DNA from: a virus
Virus record (IMG/VR): IMGVR_UViG_3300044949_000356
Location: 1 to 20,183 of that record
DNA: 20,183 nucleotides
Reading direction: 5' to 3' (one strand)
The number at the start of each line of letters is the position of its first letter. Positions within the stretch are counted from its first letter, which is position 1. The notes under the pieces are model-generated. The model saw only the letters and a program-made list of their open reading frames with translations, made no database searches and was not told where the DNA came from. Position numbers and translations under genes: made by a program. Positions 2,723 through 20,183 of the stretch are shown in pieces.

Positions 2723-5052
2723 TGGGTAGGTGCGTTAGCCCGTTCTGCAAGTCGTTTGGCTTGAATATCCGCCAGTTTGGCGGAGTTGTCAAGTATTTTC
2801 GAGGAAGCCGAAATCTGGTTCTGCTTGCTCTTGTTCTCGGCATCGAGGAGCATGCTGGTTTCCTTGAGGTCAAGCTCGCGGTTCTTGAGGGCGATCTTGG
2901 CTGCCTCGCGGACATCCTGCGACTGGATGCGTGCCGCCGAAAGCTGAAGCTCCTGCTGATTAAGCTGAACCATCTGCTGCTCAACGGACGGACCTTCGCC
3001 GCCCATGCCGGACGCCGCCGAGATCATCAGCATCTGTGTGGCGACTTGAGCCTGCACGTTCGGGTCTTCGATGGGCATGCCCATCTGCTGGGCCAGAAGC
3101 GCGGCCTGCGCCACGAACATCAGCACCTTGTGTTCGGCGATGTTGGCATTTAGAAGCTGGAGGCCAATGGCGATGGTCGGGTCGTTGGCGCCCTGCATCT
3201 GCGGCGTCTTGAGGAACGCTTCCTTCACGGCAATGTGAGCGGCATGATTCTGGCCAAGCTGGGCCTTGATGGGCTTGCCCGACATGGCAGCCTGCACCTC
3301 GGTCAACGGATCGGCGCTGATGGCTTGGGCTTCCGGGTTGACGAGGAGCTTGTCCACGTTCTCGGTGCCCATGGCCGCGTAGAAGCGCCGTAGCGCCTCG
3401 CGCATGTCGTGGAGTTGGGGGAACTGGGCAGCCATGTTGAGTTCGATCTGGGCGCGAGCCACCCGCTGCGACTCGGTCAGGGCATTGGGGTCAGACGCCG
3501 GAATGACGTCCACGGCCGCCGGGTCGAAGTCGTTGCGCTGGACGTAGGCGTTCTCGGAGCCGACCACGAAGTTGACGAGGTCGGGCAGGTTCTCAAAGTT
3601 GAGTTCGCCAATGAGCTTGAGGAACTCGCCCTGCGACTGGTGGAGGCGCTTGTGGATCGAGGAGTAGAATCGCTGCGAGGCTTCGATCAGGGCCAGCGTG
3701 GTGCCGACCGGACCGTAGTTGGTGGCGTTGGCGGCGACCTCGTCGGTGGCGTCGGCGAACTTCTGGCCGCTATCCACCATGAACTTGAGGAGGGCGAAGA
3801 GGGTCTGGTTCGGCTCCTTGCCCGGCAGCGGGAAGAACGCCTTGCCCAGTTCTTCGGGCGACAGGTTGACGTCGCGCCACTCGCCAAAGCCCAGCGGGGT
3901 GTCGCTGTCGGAGAACTTGGCGTCTTGGGACTTGAAGCCCGCCTGCCAGTTGGCGTACTGGCCTGCGTCGACCAGCGAGCGGAGGGCCACGGTAGCAGAG
4001 GCTGCGAGGTCGCCGATGAGGTGGACGTAGCCAAGGGCGTAGAAGCCGAAGGCCGGAATGAACTGGTCGACGGTGTACCAGATGCGCTTGGTCTTGGAAG
4101 TGTCGTCCTCGCGCCAGTTGCGCTTGATGGAGTAGACGTTGCCGGTCTTGACGTTGAAGTGAACAATGTAGGGCGCCATGCCACCGTCGGGCAGCGTGGG
4201 GTCGTCGCCGTTCAGATCGAGGTAGCAGTGAGCCTCGCCGACCGTGTAGCCCTTGCGTTCGAGCGACATGTCGAAGCCTTGGGCGTTGGCGATGGCTTCG
4301 GTTATTTCGTTGGTGTCGAGGACTTCCTCGGCATCGTTCTCGGAGACTTCGAGGAAGGTGCCAGCCGCCACAAGATTCTCCATCTTGCGGGTGGAAAGCT
4401 CCATGACCTCGATGTATTCCTCGGCGTCACGCAGATGGGTTGCCGATGGGTCGATGTAGAAGTTCTCGACGTAGACGACGGTGGGGTCGGGCGCGGAGTT
4501 CACGCTGTTCCAGCCCGCCTTGCGGATGCCGGTGCCCATGAAGCCAACGCGGAACAGGTTGCGTTCGAGGTCGTTGTAGAAGCCCGGCACCTGCTCGGTA
4601 AGCTGGTAGTTCATGTAGGTGCGGACGCGGGCAGCGGCCTGTTCGCGGGGGATGTCGACGTAGCCACGCACCTTGGTGCGGACCGGACCCTTGGCAGGCC
4701 ACAGTTCTTGGATGGCCTTGGCCTGGAACTTGACCACGTTTTCGATGAGGAGGGGATGGACGGCGGTGCAGGCACCATCGACCTCGGTGTTACCCTGGCC
4801 CTCGGTGTTTAGGCCCAGCCAGTGGATGCCCTGCTTGATTTTCTCTTCCCACTGCTGGCGGGCGTTCTTGAAGTTCTGGAGGGCGTCTTGACGCTGGGAG
4901 CCGATGTCCCGAAGTATTGCGTCGTCCATGCCGGCCGCTAGGTTAGCACCGAACGACATGTCAATCTCGACAATCTCGTCGGCCGGAATAACTTCGAGCG
5001 TCTCTTCAGAGAACTCAAATTCCATTTCTGGATTTTCGAGATTATCAGACAT
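2719..5052 (-). CDS. Portal protein
   Basis: 777 residues. The ATG at 5050-5052 overlaps the terminase large subunit stop by eight bases. The portal is the dodecameric ring at one capsid vertex through which the terminase pumps DNA and to which the tail attaches. Length and layout suit P22-like or podovirus-type portals (about 700-800 residues). The N-terminal region has GIHWLGLNTEG and a helical FQAKAIQELWPAKGPVRTKV segment (about 110-135). A core follows with VGFMGTGIRKAGW and a VYVENFYIDPSA strand-turn near residue 205, both typical of large phage portals. The central portion has an FGFYALGYVHL membrane-like but probably stem helix segment, then a long helical C-terminus (about 600-777) rich in Gln, Ala and Leu, as in portal barrel domains. 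Its place directly after terminase is the canonical order. I am confident of the family and less so of the tail type. Confidence 0.9.
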   Translation of the reverse strand: MSDNLENPEMEFEFSEETLEVIPADEIVEIDMSFGANLAAGMDDAILRDIGSQRQDALQNFKNARQQWEEKIKQGIHWLGLNTEGQGNTEVDGACTAVHPLLIENVVKFQAKAIQELWPAKGPVRTKVRGYVDIPREQAAARVRTYMNYQLTEQVPGFYNDLERNLFRVGFMGTGIRKAGWNSVNSAPDPTVVYVENFYIDPSATHLRDAEEYIEVMELSTRKMENLVAAGTFLEVSENDAEEVLDTNEITEAIANAQGFDMSLERKGYTVGEAHCYLDLNGDDPTLPDGGMAPYIVHFNVKTGNVYSIKRNWREDDTSKTKRIWYTVDQFIPAFGFYALGYVHLIGDLAASATVALRSLVDAGQYANWQAGFKSQDAKFSDSDTPLGFGEWRDVNLSPEELGKAFFPLPGKEPNQTLFALLKFMVDSGQKFADATDEVAANATNYGPVGTTLALIEASQRFYSSIHKRLHQSQGEFLKLIGELNFENLPDLVNFVVGSENAYVQRNDFDPAAVDVIPASDPNALTESQRVARAQIELNMAAQFPQLHDMREALRRFYAAMGTENVDKLLVNPEAQAISADPLTEVQAAMSGKPIKAQLGQNHAAHIAVKEAFLKTPQMQGANDPTIAIGLQLLNANIAEHKVLMFVAQAALLAQQMGMPIEDPNVQAQVATQMLMISAASGMGGEGPSVEQQMVQLNQQELQLSAARIQSQDVREAAKIALKNRELDLKETSMLLDAENKSKQNQISASSKILDNSAKLADIQAKRLAERANAPTQ

Positions 5053-6592
5053 GTGTTACTTGACTCCAATAGCTCTTGAAAGGGCGTCTACTTGAAGGCC
5101 GCTCCACATTGCCGACCTTTTCTTGCGTCAATTCATAGCGGCGTCGCAAGTAAAGCAGGGCCATCACCATAGCATCGACGGCGTCGTCATGGGCGCCCTT
5201 TGGAAATTCTAGGGCCTCCTGCAAAAGCTCGGCCGCATATTTCCGCTTGAGGGGTAGCCAGACGCGCTGACGCTCAATAATGCCTGTCACCGCATGAGCC
5301 CTAGCCACTTTATCACGGTCGGGCTGAAAAGGCAACACAGGCAGCTTATTGAGCTTAAGGTCCTGAATTAGGGACTGACCCGAGGCTTTATTTTCCACGA
5401 TTATGCGATCCGGCTTGAACGTCGTATATTGTTCTTTGGCCACGGCCCGAAGCTGGGGGTAGGTCCACCGGCCCCGGACTTGGTTCAGGAGGATGGCGTT
5501 GGGCTCCTGATACTCAAAGCCCTTCTCGTCGGTGAAGGTTAGGTGGAAGATGCCCCACGTCTGAATGACCGAGAAGTCAGCCTTGGCCTTGGTGGAGAAG
5601 GCGGTATCGAGGGTTTGGATGATCTCGTCGCACTCGGGCGGATCGTCTTCGTCCCAGTCTTGGAAGTCGTCCTTGTTGAAGACGTTGCCGTCCTCGCCGG
5701 TCGGGGTCTGCATGTACAGGGCACCCCAGTCGGCCCGCGACAAACCCTCGCGCGTAGCGATGAGGTCGTCCATCGTGATGTATTCGGGCCAGTAGGATTC
5801 GCTCTCAGGCAGCATGAGGTATTCGGCTGCGGGCTTGTCGAGGATGGCCGGAATGGATATGACTTCCCACTGGTCGACGCGCGGGTTGCGGGCAGCCTTG
5901 TCAAGCAGGAAGCCTGAAAGGTCGCGCACATGCCACCGGGTGTTGACGAGGATGATGCGGGAGTCGGGCAGTTTACGGGAGCGGAAGCCGGGGCCATACC
6001 AGTTGTTGACACGCTCGCGCTCGGTGTCGGACTTGGCGGTCTGCTCGGAGAGGGGGTCGTCGAGGATGCCCAGATTGAAGCGGTAACCGGCGATGGACTT
6101 GCCCGCGCCGGCAGGCATGAAGGAGCCGCCCGTGATTAGCTTCCAACTGGTGACGCCCGACATGTCGTCACGGATGCGAACGCCGTCGAAGATCTCTTGG
6201 TATTCGGAGGAGCGGACGAGGTCGCGGATACGGCCAGAACATTCGACCGCCTTGTCGGTGGTGTGCGAAATCCACATGAAGCGCCATGTGGGGTGGCGAC
6301 CCATGCACCATGCGACGAACAGCATAAGGAGGACGGACTTCATGGAGCCCGGCGGCAGCATGAGCATCAGGCGCTCGACGGACCCATCGTCTACATCTTC
6401 TAGTGTAGCAGCAATTGATTCAATATGGCGGCCGTCGCGGTATGTATTGCCGTCCAACATCAAATGGGCCAAAAGTTTTACGAAAACATAAAAATGATCT
6501 TGCGCTTCAAGAACAGCTTTCTTGTGCAGCAAATCAGCTAACTCTGCTTTGGCCTCAATAAGTTTATTGTCGTCGCTTGGAAGAACTGTCAT
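5045..6592 (-). CDS. terL: Terminase large subunit (packaging ATPase/nuclease)
   Basis: 515 residues; the ATG at 6590-6592 is one base past the HNH stop. This is the DNA-packaging motor. The N-terminal ATPase has a Walker A variant PPGSMKS (residues 80-86), a Walker B hydrophobic strand ending in acidic DD (GILDDP, 175-180) and a LVNTRWH coupling motif (215-221). The C-terminal RNase H-fold nuclease shows its three acidic positions in TLDTAFS (D329), IIVENKA (E400) and HDDAVDA (D469, D470, D473). All key residues are present, so the enzyme looks intact. It cuts concatemeric genome DNA and drives it through the portal encoded immediately downstream. Composition is uneven: the first roughly 150 bases (6440-6592) are about 40-50% GC, like the HNH gene beside it, whereas the middle is clearly GC-rich. 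Confidence 0.95.
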   Translation of the reverse strand: MTVLPSDDNKLIEAKAELADLLHKKAVLEAQDHFYVFVKLLAHLMLDGNTYRDGRHIESIAATLEDVDDGSVERLMLMLPPGSMKSVLLMLFVAWCMGRHPTWRFMWISHTTDKAVECSGRIRDLVRSSEYQEIFDGVRIRDDMSGVTSWKLITGGSFMPAGAGKSIAGYRFNLGILDDPLSEQTAKSDTERERVNNWYGPGFRSRKLPDSRIILVNTRWHVRDLSGFLLDKAARNPRVDQWEVISIPAILDKPAAEYLMLPESESYWPEYITMDDLIATREGLSRADWGALYMQTPTGEDGNVFNKDDFQDWDEDDPPECDEIIQTLDTAFSTKAKADFSVIQTWGIFHLTFTDEKGFEYQEPNAILLNQVRGRWTYPQLRAVAKEQYTTFKPDRIIVENKASGQSLIQDLKLNKLPVLPFQPDRDKVARAHAVTGIIERQRVWLPLKRKYAAELLQEALEFPKGAHDDAVDAMVMALLYLRRRYELTQEKVGNVERPSSRRPFKSYWSQVTHV

Positions 6593-14938: not shown

Positions 14939-15102
14939 GACTTGAAGGCCCTCAGAGGCAGCAGCGCCATGACGGCCCGCCGTTCCTCATCAGTAAATCC
15001 GCGCCAACCCGCCAACTCCTCAAGAGTACGATGGCAGGAGGCACAGCAAGCAGGCTCAACAGCCCGATTAACACTACACTTTCCATTACACGGGCTCTCC
15101 AC
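14935..15102 (-). CDS. DUF1289-like Cys-rich small protein
   Basis: 55 residues from a GTG at 15100-15102, one base after the RNR stop, so it is probably translationally coupled; a TTG at 15150 would extend it into the RNR gene and looks less likely. The order SPCNGKCSVN, then CCASCHRTLEELAGWRGFTD, then EERRAVMALLPLR matches the DUF1289 layout (SPC...C......C.gC.RtldEia.W...sd.e...vl..lp.R), including the four spaced cysteines. DUF1289 proteins are small, widespread in Pseudomonadota and of unknown function; the cysteines suggest metal or Fe-S binding. Its presence beside an RNR in a phage raises the possibility of a redox or metal role, but that is speculation. Confidence 0.75.
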   Translation of the reverse strand: MESPCNGKCSVNRAVEPACCASCHRTLEELAGWRGFTDEERRAVMALLPLRAFKS

Positions 15103-15103
15103 C

Positions 15104-17131
15104 TTAGCGGATGGGGCAGGCGCCGGTCGCACACTCGCTCCCGGTGTCAATTTCGAACTCCTGCTCGTCCTTATCGCCCACTTCCACCCCCTGCTGACCG
15201 CCTTCCAGCGGCTTCAAGGTGCCTGCATAGGCCCGGAACGTCGCCTCATCCACCACTTCCTGCGGCAAATACAGGTAGCCGAGGTCCTTGGCAGTCTTAG
15301 TCGGGTCAGTCCGGTACAGGAAGCTCACACCAACGTAGTGATCCCAGTTCTTATGCAGCCATTCCGCCGCCGCACCCGCCTCTTCAGGGCTGTAGCTGAT
15401 GGTGACCGAGCAATTATGGTCAACATAGTGGTCCATCAGCAGCTTATAGCGGTCCAACTGCACCGTTGCCGGCTCCAGATTGACGAACTTCCCATCAACC
15501 TCGTCGAACTTGACGTTCTCATAGGCCACGGGGAAGGTCACCAACACCGCATCCGGGCTGGACGGGTCCTGAAACACCCGATAGTTCGCCGCAATCAGCT
15601 TCTCAACATACGGATCGTGCTTGCTGAACCGCACATTGTTGAAAATGAACTTGCCCAGCGGCTTATGCACACCCTCAGTCGTGTCCATAATCTTGCTCAG
15701 GGTGCCCGACGGCTTGACCGTCGTGACAGCCTTCGGCCGGGGCAGCCCCAACTCGTCGGCCATCTTGTACGCCGCCGTCTTCGCAACCAGCTTCAGCGTC
15801 TGCCAAGCCTTCGGATCGTCAGCAAACTCCCACTCAGCAACGCCCGTAATGCCCACGCCGCACAGCCGGAGGAACTCGTTGTTCTCATGCCACGCACGCT
15901 GAAGCACACCGTCCACCAGATTCACACAGGTCTGGCGGTAATTAGCACGGGCCAGCAGTTCAGCCGTGCGCCACAGGCGATTCACAGCCACCCCATTGTA
16001 GTGGCTCAGGTTGATTTCAACCAGATTACAGAAGCCCTTGTTGGGCAGCAGGATTTCGGCGCAGGGATTCACGCCCGAAATCCACGGGGCGCTACGCTTA
16101 CCTTCCACCATATTAATGAAGCCAGGCTCCGAGCCACCGGCTTCCTGCATCAGATCGAACAGTTCCGTGATGTCGCCCTGCGTGGGACGCGACTTGAACA
16201 TCACCGAGTTGTTGGACTGCTGCCGGTGGAAGTTGTTATGAACCCAGAAGTCCTTCTTCGCCTTGGCGAACTCCACCCACTCCGGGTCGCCATGCGGAAC
16301 CAGTGCAATCTCAGCCGAACGGCGGCTAGAAAGCGTGGTGCCAAGGTGGTTGAGCAGATCGAGGATGTCGATGCGGCTCAGAAGCTGGCCCGCCCGCTTG
16401 TTGAGAACTTCCGCAATCCGCTCCATCGCGGGCGCGAAAGTCTCGTCGCCGCTCGAAATCCAGCCATACCCACGCAGGCGCTGACCAGCCGGACGAATCT
16501 GCGTGAAGTCAAGACGAAGCACATCCGCCTTCCGCTTACCCGCCAGCACCTTACCAACCGACTTCGCCCACGCCTCGGCGCTGTCACCCACACTAATAGT
16601 CCAGACGGTCTTGCCGTTTTCCTGCGTGTAGGTCTCGACGTTGGTCTCGCGGCCCTTCTTCTGCTCCAGCAGGTGACGTTCGCTGCGCACCAACTGAATG
16701 TCCATCGGCGTCGTGAACCCGTTCAGCGTCCCAACGACCGGCTCGAAGCCGACGCCACAACCCTGCAACAGCAGCCAGAACGCATCCACCACATCATGCA
16801 CGGTCTCGATCTTCGTGAACGCGCAGTTGAACATGCTGGCCTCACGGCGCTTTGCAACTTCCGTGCCACCAAGCCACAGCGTCCGCCCGCTCACCGACCC
16901 AGCCCGGGTCAGCAGCACCTCACGCAGTTCCTCAAGCTCGTCTTCCTGCATGATATCCAGCGGCTTATCGCCCAGAGCCCGCTGCCACAGCCAACGCTGA
17001 TGGCTAATCACCCGACCAACAATATCGTCCCACGACTCAAAGCCACCACCCTCGGTCGGGCGGGCATAGGTACGACGAATGATAGTGGCAGCGCGCGCGG
17101 ACGGCATGCGCGGCTCTTCGAAGTTACGCAT
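15104..17131 (-). CDS. Adenosylcobalamin-dependent (class II) ribonucleotide reductase
   Basis: 675 residues from the ATG at 17129-17131, chosen for the AGGAG six bases upstream; a TTG two codons earlier has no such signal. It reduces ribonucleotides to deoxynucleotides using coenzyme B12. Against the Lactobacillus leichmannii monomeric enzyme (739 residues), C103 (FNCAF) and C368 (GFCNL) match the active-site disulphide pair, and NPCAEI (355-360) holds the thiyl radical cysteine C357 and glutamate E359. The spacing C357-C368 is 11, as in the reference. TVKPSGTLS (471-479) is the phosphate-binding segment, and the C-terminal CATGACP carries the re-reducing pair C667/C672, again five apart. 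All catalytic residues are present. It follows thyX by 54 bases and supplies dNTPs for phage replication independently of oxygen and of a second subunit. Confidence 0.95.
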   Translation of the reverse strand: MRNFEEPRMPSARAATIIRRTYARPTEGGGFESWDDIVGRVISHQRWLWQRALGDKPLDIMQEDELEELREVLLTRAGSVSGRTLWLGGTEVAKRREASMFNCAFTKIETVHDVVDAFWLLLQGCGVGFEPVVGTLNGFTTPMDIQLVRSERHLLEQKKGRETNVETYTQENGKTVWTISVGDSAEAWAKSVGKVLAGKRKADVLRLDFTQIRPAGQRLRGYGWISSGDETFAPAMERIAEVLNKRAGQLLSRIDILDLLNHLGTTLSSRRSAEIALVPHGDPEWVEFAKAKKDFWVHNNFHRQQSNNSVMFKSRPTQGDITELFDLMQEAGGSEPGFINMVEGKRSAPWISGVNPCAEILLPNKGFCNLVEINLSHYNGVAVNRLWRTAELLARANYRQTCVNLVDGVLQRAWHENNEFLRLCGVGITGVAEWEFADDPKAWQTLKLVAKTAAYKMADELGLPRPKAVTTVKPSGTLSKIMDTTEGVHKPLGKFIFNNVRFSKHDPYVEKLIAANYRVFQDPSSPDAVLVTFPVAYENVKFDEVDGKFVNLEPATVQLDRYKLLMDHYVDHNCSVTISYSPEEAGAAAEWLHKNWDHYVGVSFLYRTDPTKTAKDLGYLYLPQEVVDEATFRAYAGTLKPLEGGQQGVEVGDKDEQEFEIDTGSECATGACPIR

Positions 17132-17185
17132 CAACAACTCCTATATCAGGTGAACAACCACTATACCAAAAACCAGCCCACTTTA

Positions 17186-17824
17186 CTACCGCGCTGCGGT
17201 CAGGGCTGCCCACGAAAACGGGAAAAGCTCTGCCATCTTAGGCCCAATCTTCTCCACAACCTCGCGGGTCTCACGCTGCGCATCAGGCTTGACCCGAAGG
17301 CCCCACACCCGCGCCCAGCCCAACAGACTACCAGTCCAGTGCCACTCAGTATACATGTTCTGCGGCAAAATCATCCGCGCCTGTTCCGCGCAGCAGCCTT
17401 CCGCAACCATGCGCTTGTAATCCCATACCAGCGACCGGGCCGCAATATCCACCCGCTCCGTAACACCGTACTTATCCTGCCACTGATCGTCCGTGCTACC
17501 CTGCTTGATATCCTCAGAGCCCCGGCGCCACTCCTTCGGCCAGTACAGTTCCGGCGTATCCTTGACGTACCGGCGGCTGATCTCGCTCCACACGAAACCA
17601 ACCTGATGCTTCGCCAACTGGCGAGCCACAAAGATAGGCGCCTTGAAGTGGAAGCTCACATGCGGATGCGCGAACGGCAACTCATGCTTATGCCGCGCCA
17701 GATAGCTCAGAAGCCGGCCATCCTTCTCAGGCCGGAACTCCTGCACCCGCTTCCCAAACGACACGCGGGCCGCGTTGACAACCGTCAGGTCGTCCCCGTA
17801 GTGGCCCAGATAGGTCACATCCAC
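17186..17824 (-). CDS. thyX: Flavin-dependent thymidylate synthase ThyX
   Basis: 212 residues from a GTG at 17822-17824 with GAGGAG eight bases upstream. ThyX makes dTMP from dUMP using FAD, NADPH and methylene-tetrahydrofolate. The N-terminus has VVNAARVSFGK (family: vv.aARvsf.k). The ThyX signature region is RQLAKHQ (68-74) followed by VGFVWSEISRRY (75-86). The usual RHRxxSxNExSxRY motif is therefore altered to KHQ, the Asn before the conserved Glu is Ser, and there is one extra residue. KHQ-type variants are, from memory, common among phage ThyX proteins. AEQARMILPQNMYTEWHWTG (146-165) matches the ExxRxxLP...t...w C-terminal motif. Its stop is followed by 54 bases and then the RNR gene, so the two probably form one dNTP operon. 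Confidence 0.93.
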   Translation of the reverse strand: MDVTYLGHYGDDLTVVNAARVSFGKRVQEFRPEKDGRLLSYLARHKHELPFAHPHVSFHFKAPIFVARQLAKHQVGFVWSEISRRYVKDTPELYWPKEWRRGSEDIKQGSTDDQWQDKYGVTERVDIAARSLVWDYKRMVAEGCCAEQARMILPQNMYTEWHWTGSLLGWARVWGLRVKPDAQRETREVVEKIGPKMAELFPFSWAALTAAR

Positions 17825-17853
17825 CGATAGCTCTCCTCGTTGATGGGAGGCGC

Positions 17854-17882
17854 AATTTAATGCTAGACTCTCAGCTTGTCAA
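17854..17882 (-). promoter_or_regulatory. Sigma70-type promoter of thyX-RNR
   Basis: A perfect -35 TTGACA (17877-17882), a 17-base spacer and TAAATT (17854-17859) on the minus strand lie 30 bases before the thyX start. On the opposite strand an overlapping TTGATG-18-TAGACT with an extended TGC is also visible (17840-17869), so the spot may fire both ways; the plus-strand version is weaker evidence. Confidence 0.65.
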
Positions 17883-18131
17883 GGAAGGGGAGGTCCTCAC
17901 GAATTGGACTTCCGGCGTACTGGCATCTCGACGGCCGGGCATTCCCAGCCGTATCCAGATCGCAGACGGGGCTACTGTCCCAGCAGGCAGGACAACCCCG
18001 AAAAAGGTGGGCGGGCCCCCTACAGTTTAGTGGATGACCCGCCCTTGAAGCGGGGTTTCCCCCGCCTAGCCACACAACAAGGAGACACTTGCTTAGTTCT
18101 AGTACGCCAGCCCGATGCGACTCTGCTGACA
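17883..18131 (-). ncRNA. Highly structured thyX leader or noncoding RNA
   Basis: About 250 bases without a convincing gene, transcribed leftward if the promoter at 18138-18166 is active. Clear hairpins are a GAAA tetraloop stem at 18048-18067, a terminator-like stem at 18009-18044, a two-part stem at 17967-18000 (CGGGG/CCCCG around GTCC/GGAC) and a 9-bp stem at 17931-17952. In several stems a pair that is G-U on the minus-strand RNA would be a C-A mismatch on the plus strand, favouring the minus orientation; a further hairpin at 17889-17913 favours plus. I do not recognise a known RNA family. It could be one 5' leader of thyX or a separate small RNA. Confidence 0.45.
18001..18067 (-). terminator. 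Attenuator-like terminator with alternative stems
   Basis: Minus-strand RNA order: GCGGGG (18060-18065), GAAA, CCCCGC (18050-18055); then GGGCGGG (18038-18044), a 22-base loop, CCCGCCC (18009-18015), ACC and five U (18001-18005). The CCCGC at 18050-18054 can pair either back to GCGGG in the tetraloop stem or forward to GCGGG at 18038-18042, which would break the terminator. This is the classic anti-antiterminator, antiterminator, terminator layout. Confidence 0.5.
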
Positions 18132-18137
18132 AGAAGC

Positions 18138-18166
18138 AATATAGTACACCCGCACCCATTTGTCAA
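18138..18166 (-). promoter_or_regulatory. Strong sigma70-type promoter, leftward
   Basis: Perfect TTGACA (18161-18166), exactly 17 bases, then TATATT (18138-18143; five of six to consensus). It is the best promoter match in the window. It reads into the structured leader and, if the terminator is passed, into thyX. It diverges from the plus-strand promoter at 18203-18231; between them lies a GC-rich near-palindrome (18179-18198, GAGGGACCC...GGGCCCTC) that could be an operator. Confidence 0.7.
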
Positions 18167-18202
18167 GCGTCGCTACGCGAGGGACCCGCCGGGCCCTCCC
18201 AC

Positions 18203-18231
18203 TTGATTTCCCCCTTGACCTATGCTATATA
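18203..18231 (+). promoter_or_regulatory. Divergent rightward promoter
   Basis: TTGATT (18203-18208), 17 bases, TATATA (18226-18231). It faces right into the repeat-rich region and the two small plus-strand genes. Together with the promoter at 18138-18166 it forms a divergent control pair, as at phage early regions. Confidence 0.5.
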
Positions 18232-18270
18232 GGACTCTACCCTGCCGAAATGCACCCTTTTGCCAGAGTA

Positions 18271-18535
18271 GGTGAGAAGCCCCGCGCAGTGAGAAAGTCC
18301 AAAAGCCTTCCTCCCTCCCGGCGCCCAGCTAAGTCATTGAAATCATTGGCAAAGTGAGAAGGTGAGCGAGTGAGCGCGTTTTCCCAACCTTTTCTATATA
18401 ATACTCTTTCTTCTTCTCTCATAAAAAGGGTACGCTCACCATTCTCACTTCCTCACCTTCAGGGCTTACGCCCTTGATATACAACGCTTTTTACGGTGAG
18501 AATCCCCGGTGAGCGTTACGCTCCCGTAACTCACC
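18271..18535. repeat. GGTGAG-type repeat cluster around AT-rich core (candidate origin/operator)
   Basis: About eleven copies of (G/A)GTGAG plus AAx or CGx. Plus-strand copies start at 18271, 18288, 18353, 18361, 18369, 18495 and 18508; inverted copies (CTCACC/CTCACT) lie at 18433-18440, 18441-18449, 18451-18457 and 18529-18535. Composite AGTGAGAA...GGTGAGCG units at 18353-18368 and 18433-18449 are inverted about an AT-rich, pyrimidine-rich core (18379-18430) that holds a perfect TATAAT (18397-18402). A dyad at 18508-18535 has arms GGTGA..GTTACG and CGTAACTCACC. Iterons plus an AT-rich element suggest a replication origin; an operator array is the alternative. Confidence 0.6.
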
Positions 18536-18543
18536 TGGCCCCC

Positions 18544-18672
18544 GTTGGACGGCGACCGGCGTTGCGCGGCGTTGCGCGCGGTGACATTTGCCCCCGTCGA
18601 AAGTCTGCGTCTGGGTACGGGATCGTTACGAATGCGGAATAAATTATGTGCTTGACGTTGGACGGCGACCGG
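18544..18672 (+). repeat. 16-bp direct repeat GTTGGACGGCGACCGG
   Basis: Identical copies at 18544-18559 and 18657-18672, 113 bases apart. The second overlaps the -35/spacer of the promoter at 18652-18680. A short tandem repeat GTTGCGCGGC/GTTGCGCGCG lies just after the first copy (18561-18580). These may be protein-binding sites. The stretch between has no supported gene. Confidence 0.65.
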
Positions 18673-18680
18673 GCTAGAGT
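18652..18680 (+). promoter_or_regulatory. Promoter of the two small plus-strand genes
   Basis: TTGACG (18652-18657), 17 bases, TAGAGT (18675-18680), followed 14 bases later by AGGAGG and a start codon. The 16-bp repeat copy lies from the last base of the -35 through the spacer, a position suited to repressor or activator binding. Confidence 0.6.
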
Positions 18681-18705
18681 GGCAGCGTTGCATAGGAGGT
18701 TGCGT

Positions 18706-18915
18706 ATGTTGAAGTGGTTCAAGCCGGAGTACCGGATCATACGGAATAGGTTCGGGTCTTTTGAAGCGCAGTCCCGGCGCTGGTGGTGGCCCTTTTGGAC
18801 TCATGTTCCTGGGACGCGCACTCGGTCTGCGGTAGAGACGGAGGTCAGTCTGACTGTGTGCCTGGAAATTAAGAGGGGCCACGAAGAGGAAATTCAGTAC
18901 CTGGGGCGCCTGTGA
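18706..18915 (+). CDS. Small hypothetical protein, Trp/Arg-rich
   Basis: 69 residues from the ATG at 18706-18708, six bases after a perfect AGGAGG (18694-18699); an upstream ATG at 18646 lies before the promoter and is rejected. It begins MLKWFKPEYRIIRNRFGSFE, continues AQSRRWWWPFWTHVPGTRTR and ends with a beta-like SLTVCLEIKRGHEEE stretch. The YrIi...FG.fe.Qsr..wWpfW pattern is familiar from short phage early-region proteins of unknown function. There is no catalytic motif. Its stop overlaps the ATG of the next gene (TGATG), so the pair is an operon running opposite to the rest of the window. Confidence 0.78.
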   Translation: MLKWFKPEYRIIRNRFGSFEAQSRRWWWPFWTHVPGTRTRSAVETEVSLTVCLEIKRGHEEEIQYLGRL

Positions 18916-19085
18916 TGGCGATTCCGTTGAGGGTGGTGCAGTATTATAGGCTTGATGAGCAGGGCGAGAGGGAGTATGTGGGGTATAAGTTGCAGGTAAC
19001 GACGGCGCATGGGTGGGCGGATGTGCCCATTGTTAATGTGGAGCAGGGAAAGGAGCCTGAGTCGGGGATTATGGCAAAAGTGTGA
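18915..19085 (+). CDS. Small hypothetical protein
   Basis: 56 residues; the ATG at 18915-18917 shares its A with the preceding stop. It begins MAIPLRVVQYYRLDEQGERE and continues YVGYKLQVTTAHGWADVPIV before a charged tail ending MAKV. It looks like a single small beta sheet with a conserved-looking W-x-D-V-P. The family is not recognised. GC skew on its coding strand is strongly G-rich. The overlap with the upstream gene and the codon bias argue that it is real although short. Confidence 0.7.
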   Translation: MAIPLRVVQYYRLDEQGEREYVGYKLQVTTAHGWADVPIVNVEQGKEPESGIMAKV

Positions 19086-19413
19086 CAAAGTCTAAAAAAT
19101 TGCGCGACTGTGGTAGGGGTATCCTGACAAAAAACACAGCCGGCTAGAATTTTCCAGCCCCCACTGGGCCTACCCTTCGCGCTGGGAAAAAATGCCTAGG
19201 ACGGGAGTCTGGTTCGGGGCCGGAACGGCGCTGGCCGGAGCAGGGCTGTTGCGGGGCCGGAAGGAATAAATGCCTGGGAAAACATTCCTAGCAGGGGGCA
19301 GCAAAAAACCCCTAGGCCGGTTGACCTAGGGGCCTTTCGTTCTGGGGCCGACCCGTTGCGTCCGGGGCCGGGGTGGAAAGGGGCCGGGCCGTACTGGCCT
19401 AGCCCCTAGCCTA
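19086..19413. other. Convergent intergenic region
   Basis: 328 bases without a supported gene, between convergent units. It holds the terminator at 19309-19332, five GGGGCCG(G/A) copies (19216, 19253, 19344, 19364, 19380) all on the plus strand, and two related A-rich elements (19184-19200 and 19263-19278) of the form GGRAWAAATGCCTRGG. Confidence 0.6.
19303..19336. terminator. Bidirectional Rho-independent terminator
   Basis: A perfect 8-bp stem CCCCTAGG (19309-19316) / CCTAGGGG (19325-19332) around CCGGTTGA. On the minus strand it is followed by six U (A6 at 19303-19308), a strong terminator for the gene ending at 19414; on the plus strand by CCUUUCG, weaker, for the small genes ending at 19085. 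Confidence 0.85.
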
Positions 19414-19932
19414 TCAGGCAGCGCGCTTTCCCTTCCGCGTGATCGTGACACCGTGCGCCGCGCTCAGTCGGGCCGCCACGCTAAACGGGCCGGGGGCCGT
19501 CTTAGCCTTGGGCGCCACGGGGGCCGCCTTCACAACGGGGGCCGGGGGCGCCTTAGCCTTGGGGGCCGGAGGAGCCGGGGGCGCCTTGGGGGCCTTGGGG
19601 GCCGCCTTAGATGCGGCAATCATGCGCGCCACCATCTTTTGCATCCCGGGCCATGCCGCCAATGCATCAAGCGTGCCGGCGCCGCTCAGAATGGCCAGCG
19701 CCCAAGCCTCGGCATTGGCCACTTCGCTATCGTCCTCGACGTTGCCGGCTTCAAACGCGGCGGCATCACAGGAAAGCACCCCCCGCAGGATGCCGCGCAC
19801 GTTCAACGCCTTTGGCAAATCGCCCCGTCCGCCGGCCGCCTTGAATGCCTCGACGATAACGGCGCGGATCGTCGCAACGCCTTCCGCCGGAACCATGAAG
19901 TCGGCCCAATCCTTCACGTCATTGCGTGCCAT
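19414..19932 (-). CDS. Hypothetical protein with Ala/Pro/Lys-rich basic tail
   Basis: 172 residues from the ATG at 19930-19932, with GAGAGGA eight bases upstream; the frame continues 96 bases further but without a better start. Residues 1-105 look globular and helical (DWADFMVPAEGVATIRAVIV, EAFKAAGGRGDLPKALNVRG, then ANAEAWALAILSGAGTLDAL and WPGMQKMVARMIAASK). Residues about 107-150 are Ala/Pro/Lys repeats, reminiscent of histone H1 or AlgP-like tails. The C-terminus is PFSVAARLSAAHGVTITRKGKRAA, basic. The tail predicts nucleic-acid or polyanion binding. I do not recognise the N-terminal domain. A strong terminator follows directly, so it is transcribed as the end of its unit. Confidence 0.78.
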   Translation of the reverse strand: MARNDVKDWADFMVPAEGVATIRAVIVEAFKAAGGRGDLPKALNVRGILRGVLSCDAAAFEAGNVEDDSEVANAEAWALAILSGAGTLDALAAWPGMQKMVARMIAASKAAPKAPKAPPAPPAPKAKAPPAPVVKAAPVAPKAKTAPGPFSVAARLSAAHGVTITRKGKRAA

Positions 19933-19999
19933 CTGATTAATCCTCTCTGCGCCCCTTGGCCGGGGCTCGGCGCCTTCGCTCCATTGCGTCGGCGGCGCC

Positions 20000-20028
20000 C
20001 ATCTCGGCGCAAGGCAAAATCCTGTCAA
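20000..20028 (-). promoter_or_regulatory. Possible promoter of the basic-tail gene
   Basis: Perfect TTGACA (20023-20028) with a poor -10 (GAGATG, 20000-20005) after 17 bases, about 70 bases before the start at 19932. The -35 is convincing, the -10 is not. Confidence 0.35.
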
Positions 20029-20109
20029 TCCCTCTTCGCCGAAAATAACGCATTTGTAATCCCGCGTTCCCGGTCCGTTCGCCTGTTGTTCATGTTCCGT
20101 TGCCTTCTG

Positions 20110-20181
20110 TCACACGTTGCGGCCCCGGGCCGATCGGAACCTTTCCGCCATCGCACCAATCCGGCGCGCCGCCCCCTTACC
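20110..20181 (-). CDS. Possible C-terminal end of a gene entering from the right
   Basis: One minus-strand frame open to the window edge reads GKGAARRIGAMAERFRSARG then RNV and stops at 20110-20112. Its composition looks like a natural basic C-terminus. A second frame, open from an ATG at the very edge to a stop near 20024, is Arg-rich and less protein-like. Too little is visible to decide, and both may be noncoding. Confidence 0.3.
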   Translation of the reverse strand, partial: GKGAARRIGAMAERFRSARGRNV

Positions 20182-20183
20182 AT

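Follow-up and report, generated by a model that had tools for sequence, protein, structure and literature searches.

The window, the whole 20,183-base virus record analysed here, carries a ribonucleotide reductase gene, thyX and a leader upstream of them, all on the minus strand. The reductase (15104–17137) is class II-like, with a PF02867 match (E 5.6e-7) and a weak match to a B12-dependent insertion domain, and thyX (17186–17824), which has a GTG start, encodes a Thy1 protein (PF02511, E 4.5e-39). Two promoters precede thyX on the same strand: P2, the thyX promoter (17854–17882; TTGACA-17-TAAATT, 10/12 consensus), and P1 (18138–18166; TTGACA-17-TATATT, 11/12 consensus), from which a transcript would start near 18131. 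By consensus scoring, P1 was the top promoter-like site in 15000–20183 and P1 and P2 were the two highest-ranking ones, in line with an earlier sequence-only reading of this DNA that had called P1 the best promoter of the window and P2 a second promoter directly before thyX.

A scan for ThyX yielded 31 viral loci, and seven of their leaders formed our comparison set (L002, L003, L005, L009, L011, L014 and L025; L002 is nearly identical to the window). These seven share a common layout: P1, a hairpin CUUGUCAGC..GCUGRC, a terminator hairpin GGGCGGGUC..GGCCCGCCCACCUU, more hairpins, an element that we call Y, P2 and thyX. Both promoters are conserved among them; the invariant bases amount to 6/6 of the -35, 6/6 of the -10 and 6/17 of the spacer for P1, and to 6/6, 5/6 and 4/17 for P2. 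Directly upstream of the -35 lies a block, GCGGGTCCCTCGCGTAGCG (18172–18196 in the window, and in homologues), that is almost invariant in the group, and relatives carry a palindrome, TGTGGTAAATTTGCCACA, near it; both are likely operators. The intergenic region at 18240–18540, between divergent gene blocks, holds GTGAG-rich repeats around an AT-rich stretch at a position that is conserved in relatives, and is possibly a replication origin.

Seven other thyX loci (L004, L006, L007, L010, L012, L013 and L015) have a single promoter at an intact thyX and lack the hairpin module altogether, so the module is optional. L008 carries Y, then a P2-like promoter and another type of leader. This other leader, a conserved GC-rich 5' segment (CGCTCGTAAGACCCCGTGGATTGGGGCGGATAACGGGGGATAAGG) between promoter and thyX, is found in L004, L006, L007, L008, L010, L012 and L013, and may represent a genuine leader of thyX.

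The minus-strand RNA that follows P1 had been described as structured, and it did fold better than dinucleotide shuffles (z = -3.6 for 18132–17995, -3.4 for 18131–17883 and -2.7 for 17972–17885). The roughly 250-base run of hairpins is not, however, the single leader that it had been taken for: its P2-proximal segment, 17972–17885, is Y, a separate and widespread RNA. The P1-proximal part, which we call element X (18001–18131, minus strand), was delimited by homologue comparison and would be transcribed from P1 as an RNA of ~130 nt. An alternative offered by the sequence-only reading, a stand-alone small RNA of about 130 bases, comes close to X but does not account for the 3' part. Three hairpins make up X. 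Hairpin A (18106–18130; GUCAGC/GCUGGC) keeps its 6 pairs in 7/7 leaders, with one G-U/A-U change. Hairpin B (18050–18065) is the perfect 6-bp GAAA tetraloop stem that had already been noticed, GCGGGG-GAAA-CCCCGC; three relatives have both partners replaced in two of its pairs, and 3/7 leaders lack it. Hairpin C (GGGCGGGUC/GGCCCGCCC plus ACCUUUUU; 18001–18044) is the proposed terminator stem with five U: a terminator-like hairpin at 18044–18009, with a predicted pairing probability of 0.97–1.0 and a stem that is invariant in 7/7 leaders, is followed by ACC and then by five U (18005–18001). It escaped a simple terminator scan, presumably because three bases separate the stem from the U-run. Hairpins A and C are neutral on structure because they are almost invariant in sequence over the seven leaders, and covariation among homologues was weak for X and very strong for Y. 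The linker hairpin between X and Y (17968–18001) has other hairpins in its place in relatives. Read by eye, L005, L011 and L014 carry a second stem (CCAACCC..GGGUUGG) plus UUUUCUU after the first terminator, and such a double terminator fits a plain rather than a tunable stop. X was found solely in this thyX phage group; the pattern GGGCGGGTC..GGCCCGCCC also matched six unrelated, near-identical phage terminators.

The sequence-only reading had seen in this leader an attenuator or riboswitch, in which a segment pairs either into the GAAA stem or into the terminator stem; by sensing a nucleotide, folate or cobalamin, it would toggle the terminator to control thyX and the reductase gene. The parts do come in the correct order for such a device (promoter, structured leader, terminator-like hairpin, metabolic genes). 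The mutually exclusive pairing was not borne out: the minimum-energy fold contains both hairpins, with probabilities near 1, and forcing CCCGC to pair with GCGGG cost 16.8 kcal/mol (-42.9 instead of -59.7), at an ensemble probability of 0.0. In six homologues, the 5' arm of the terminator paired upstream with a probability of at most 0.007, in equilibrium folding that leaves co-transcriptional kinetics aside; the GAAA hairpin is transcribed first anyway. Neither did the relatives show a conserved switch: three leaders out of seven lack hairpin B, the stem of the terminator does not vary, no anti-terminator partner was found, and P2 bypasses the terminator. Relatives that lack the whole module drive thyX from one promoter, and Y, the best-conserved element, recurs in contexts unrelated to thyX. 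A covariance search of the window against Rfam gave no match at the gathering threshold, in keeping with the sequence-only reading, in which no known family was recognised, and permissive settings returned one chance match (E 3.2, other strand). We consider a riboswitch or attenuator of these genes quite unlikely, an attractive but, in our judgment, wrong reading of the thyX leader that we correct here; the leader is probably a small non-coding RNA locus, not a gene switch.

Element Y came to light as a sequence, GATCTGGATACGG..CCGTCGnGATGCCAG, that recurred in an unrelated phage (L046). We built the family from a covariance model of five sequences and then from two wider patterns that fixed stem I only, and scored loci with models R1 and R2. 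Y is tRNA-sized, about 70–90 nt, with the consensus CUGG-AU-[hairpin AC..GU]-CGCRAUG-CCAG followed by a second hairpin with the loop AA(N1-4)CGUG(A/C). The window copy (17885–17972, minus strand; 89.8 bits, E 1.2e-19 with R2; family alignments A3 and A5) has both parts. In its stem I (17920–17958), CUGG pairs with CCAG and encloses an inner hairpin (17952–17931) together with an internal loop in which AU faces CGAGAUG (CGCRAUG in the consensus), and its stem II (17889–17913) carries the AA..CGUG-type loop AAUUCGUGA (17905–17897). About 55 IMG/VR contigs carry Y, a figure that includes duplicates of one virus; L210 (E 7e-4 with R2) was excluded as uncertain.

The fold of Y is under selection as RNA. 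An alignment of 40 distinct rows has 95% of its cells paired and 18/24 pairs changed on both sides; for stem II the count is 7/8. Cells changed on both sides numbered 173, against 47.6 ± 5.8 in shuffles, and the covariation score was 0.471, against 0.126 for shuffled alignments and at most 0.086 with slid partners; the first, 21-row alignment gave the same result. Fitting A3 and A5 to the model tilts these alignments towards pairing; still, neither the magnitude of the effect nor an out-of-sample test of stem II depends on that fitting alone. In that test, a paired stem II was found in 44/79 pattern matches overall and in 150/4000 random 50-mers; with patterns of stem I only, stem II was paired and carried a CGUG loop in almost all true Y loci, but not in chance matches in coding DNA. 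The near-invariant bases are AUCUGGAUAC, GUCG-RAUGCCAG and the stem II loop AA..CGUG. Conservation of the first two groups arises partly by selection, as the search patterns fixed GGATAC and ATGCCAG; that of AA..CGUG does not. The CGUGA loop of Y could pair with an upstream UCACG, an arrangement that works in some phages only.

Compensatory, strand-specific pair changes across unrelated phages need RNA, and they leave very little room for the view that the region acts as DNA, as an operator, an origin or a degraded insertion-sequence end, with incidental hairpins. The GTGAG-rich repeats and conserved operator-like blocks of the upstream intergenic region would suit such a view, which we rate as extremely improbable; for the degraded insertion-sequence end, which had been named as a trivial explanation, the searches made returned no insertion-sequence match. 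We also dismissed three further candidates. The sequence GGGCGGGTCATCCAC, which we take to resemble insertion-sequence/omega-RNA ends, is not kept in homologues. A small protein (ORF 17863–18159) had no PHROG match, and a one-base shift inside Y in L046 indicates that the frame is not coding. Because of such frame shifts, we likewise rejected the idea that Y encodes a protein on the opposite strand.

Searches beyond these contigs did not extend the family. Rfam gave no match for the Y copies of L138 or the Y site of L141; with ARAGORN and Rfam, no tRNA or tmRNA was found in the window, and Y sites in tRNA arrays were not called. BLASTN of Y against cultured phages returned nothing meaningful, which is weak evidence given that only short blocks are conserved. 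Plasmids gave chance matches only, and none of 53 exact-pattern matches in bacterial genomes was convincing by covariance model. In the class of G013 (the genome behind L174, labelled uncultured Roseovarius), Y was found in 0/385 genomes, under stricter filters and with no positive control. Judging from sequence, with the nearest thyX genes in Roseobacter phages, the hosts of Y-carrying phages may be Alphaproteobacteria.

The genomic contexts of Y vary. In 12–13 phage contigs (L138, L141, L234, L236, L237, L243, L258/L263, L266, L268, L271, L273 and L278), Y adjoins tRNA genes, with the neighbouring tRNA 4–8 nt away in 10/13. Y occupies tRNA slots; the one in L243, bounded by tRNA-Met and tRNA-Ile, is 86 nt long and is filled by Y with 4–8 nt gaps on both sides. 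A tmRNA is also encoded in L141 and L277. Most records have one copy, but Y occurs in tandem as two copies in L138 and L262 and as four in L265. Elsewhere, it immediately precedes a start codon inside an operon (L145, L209, L216, L222 and L232), or lies at a convergent operon end where its own strand has nothing further downstream (L046 and L225). The L046 copy has its own promoter-like and terminator-like sequences, with integrase-side genes on the other strand, and the L225 copy faces an endolysin operon on the other strand. Because these contexts vary and no single gene is associated with Y across them, the RNA itself would be the product; this is our main argument, and it makes a small RNA that stands on its own more likely than a riboswitch of thyX. 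A leader or an antiterminator is made less likely by the mid-array and operon-end positions.

Several other features were observed around Y. A structured RNA-like block (AGUUUGCCGCUCUG..CCCAUCAC..) lies directly 5' of Y in L145, L209, L216, L222, L232, L256, L270 and L272; in some phages its stem UGCCGG/CCGGCA is replaced by UGUUGG/CCAACA, a change that looks compensatory by eye, and pairing of its UCAC with GUGA in the loop of Y would be possible. An RNA-like block of ~115 nt, closed by GUUCUAC/GUAGAAC, lies upstream of Y in L251 and in L141 (7425–7560, minus strand), where it had no Rfam match. L141, a 108 kb phage contig, also encodes an alphaproteobacterial-type permuted tmRNA (4943–5306, minus strand), many tRNAs and a PstS-like protein. 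Between Y and P2, L011 has an extra hairpin with the loop AAUGCCGUGC; this hairpin looks like another copy of Y stem II and is followed by UUGCUUCUU.

The compactness of Y, its ~30 near-invariant loop bases and covarying stems, and its context-independent location in phage transcripts would also suit a small self-cleaving ribozyme that releases neighbouring tRNAs or mRNAs. No Rfam ribozyme family matched, no invariant cleavage site was apparent, and we regard this reading as improbable. Another candidate is an RNA like put of phage HK022, which antiterminates in cis through the zinc-binding domain of RNA polymerase beta-prime. Such a two-stem-loop RNA would bind RNA polymerase and override terminators or Rho in long untranslated or polycistronic transcripts, and Y is indeed often located in tRNA arrays, which are untranslated, or ahead of a long operon. 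The likeness extends to size and shape, put RNAs being phage RNAs of about 70 nt with two stem-loops, located at early phage promoters or up to about 270 nt past them (PMC9378689). Unlike put, Y occurs at the ends of operons and in mid-array, positions that offer antitermination no target: nothing is left to transcribe on the same strand in L046 and L225, copies often sit within arrays and in tandem, and the window copy lies downstream of the X terminator. In the HK022 genome, R2 gave only a chance match (E 1.1), antisense to an ORF, with no homology to putL or putR. We judge a put-like role for Y to be unlikely.

The nearest known kind to Y comprises GOLLD/ROOL and the T4 RNAs rnaC and rnaD. 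Bacterial Y RNAs (YrlA type) are small RNAs with a tRNA-like, T-loop-like module, some of them in phages; set against this general description, element Y showed no such module and no Rfam match, and we treat the comparison as a lead only. GOLLD and ROOL are structured phage or prophage RNAs of unknown function that often lie near tRNA islands (PMC12286853). Y resembles them as a structured phage RNA near tRNA genes, but they are ornate and hundreds of bases long, whereas Y has two hairpins in ~70–90 nt and no Rfam match to either. The T4 stable RNAs species 1 and species 2 (rnaC and rnaD) are, like Y, small, structured and beside phage tRNA genes; at 139 and 119 nt they differ from it, and R2 found no match in the T4 tRNA region (NC_000866, 69500–74000). 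We rate Y as a new family within a known kind, the structured phage RNA of the tRNA island; it is unmatched in Rfam, and an earlier description elsewhere is possible.

We favour, with some reserve, an explanation in which an RNA locus has been inserted between the conserved promoter-proximal block upstream and the thyX promoter. P1 would give rise to element X, an RNA of ~130 nt ending at a constitutive intrinsic terminator, and thyX and the reductase gene would be expressed mainly from P2, after X termination. Y would come from some read-through or from another source and, judging from its slots in tRNA arrays, may be cut from long transcripts by tRNA-type enzymes, as tRNAs are. The RNA itself would then be the product, free-standing and acting in trans, perhaps through contacts of its invariant loops with a protein or some large piece of host machinery. 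Against this explanation, the Y copies of the thyX group come after one or two terminators, with no promoter of their own recognised there, and in several phages Y lies just upstream of start codons, where a cis-regulator would also be placed. More tentatively, and somewhat short of an even chance in our estimate, Y is a new class of small RNA, widespread in tRNA-array phages and expressed and processed like a tRNA, that takes over or shields a host machine such as the ribosome, RNA polymerase or a tRNA-targeting defence.

Not many families of structured RNA are known from phages, and the majority lack an assigned function. Y is a tractable target among them: compact, with fixed loops and covarying stems, it is small enough to synthesise, to probe and to use as bait. 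If our reading of Y is true, phage tRNA arrays would carry more than tRNAs, and Y would offer a handle on what these arrays are for.
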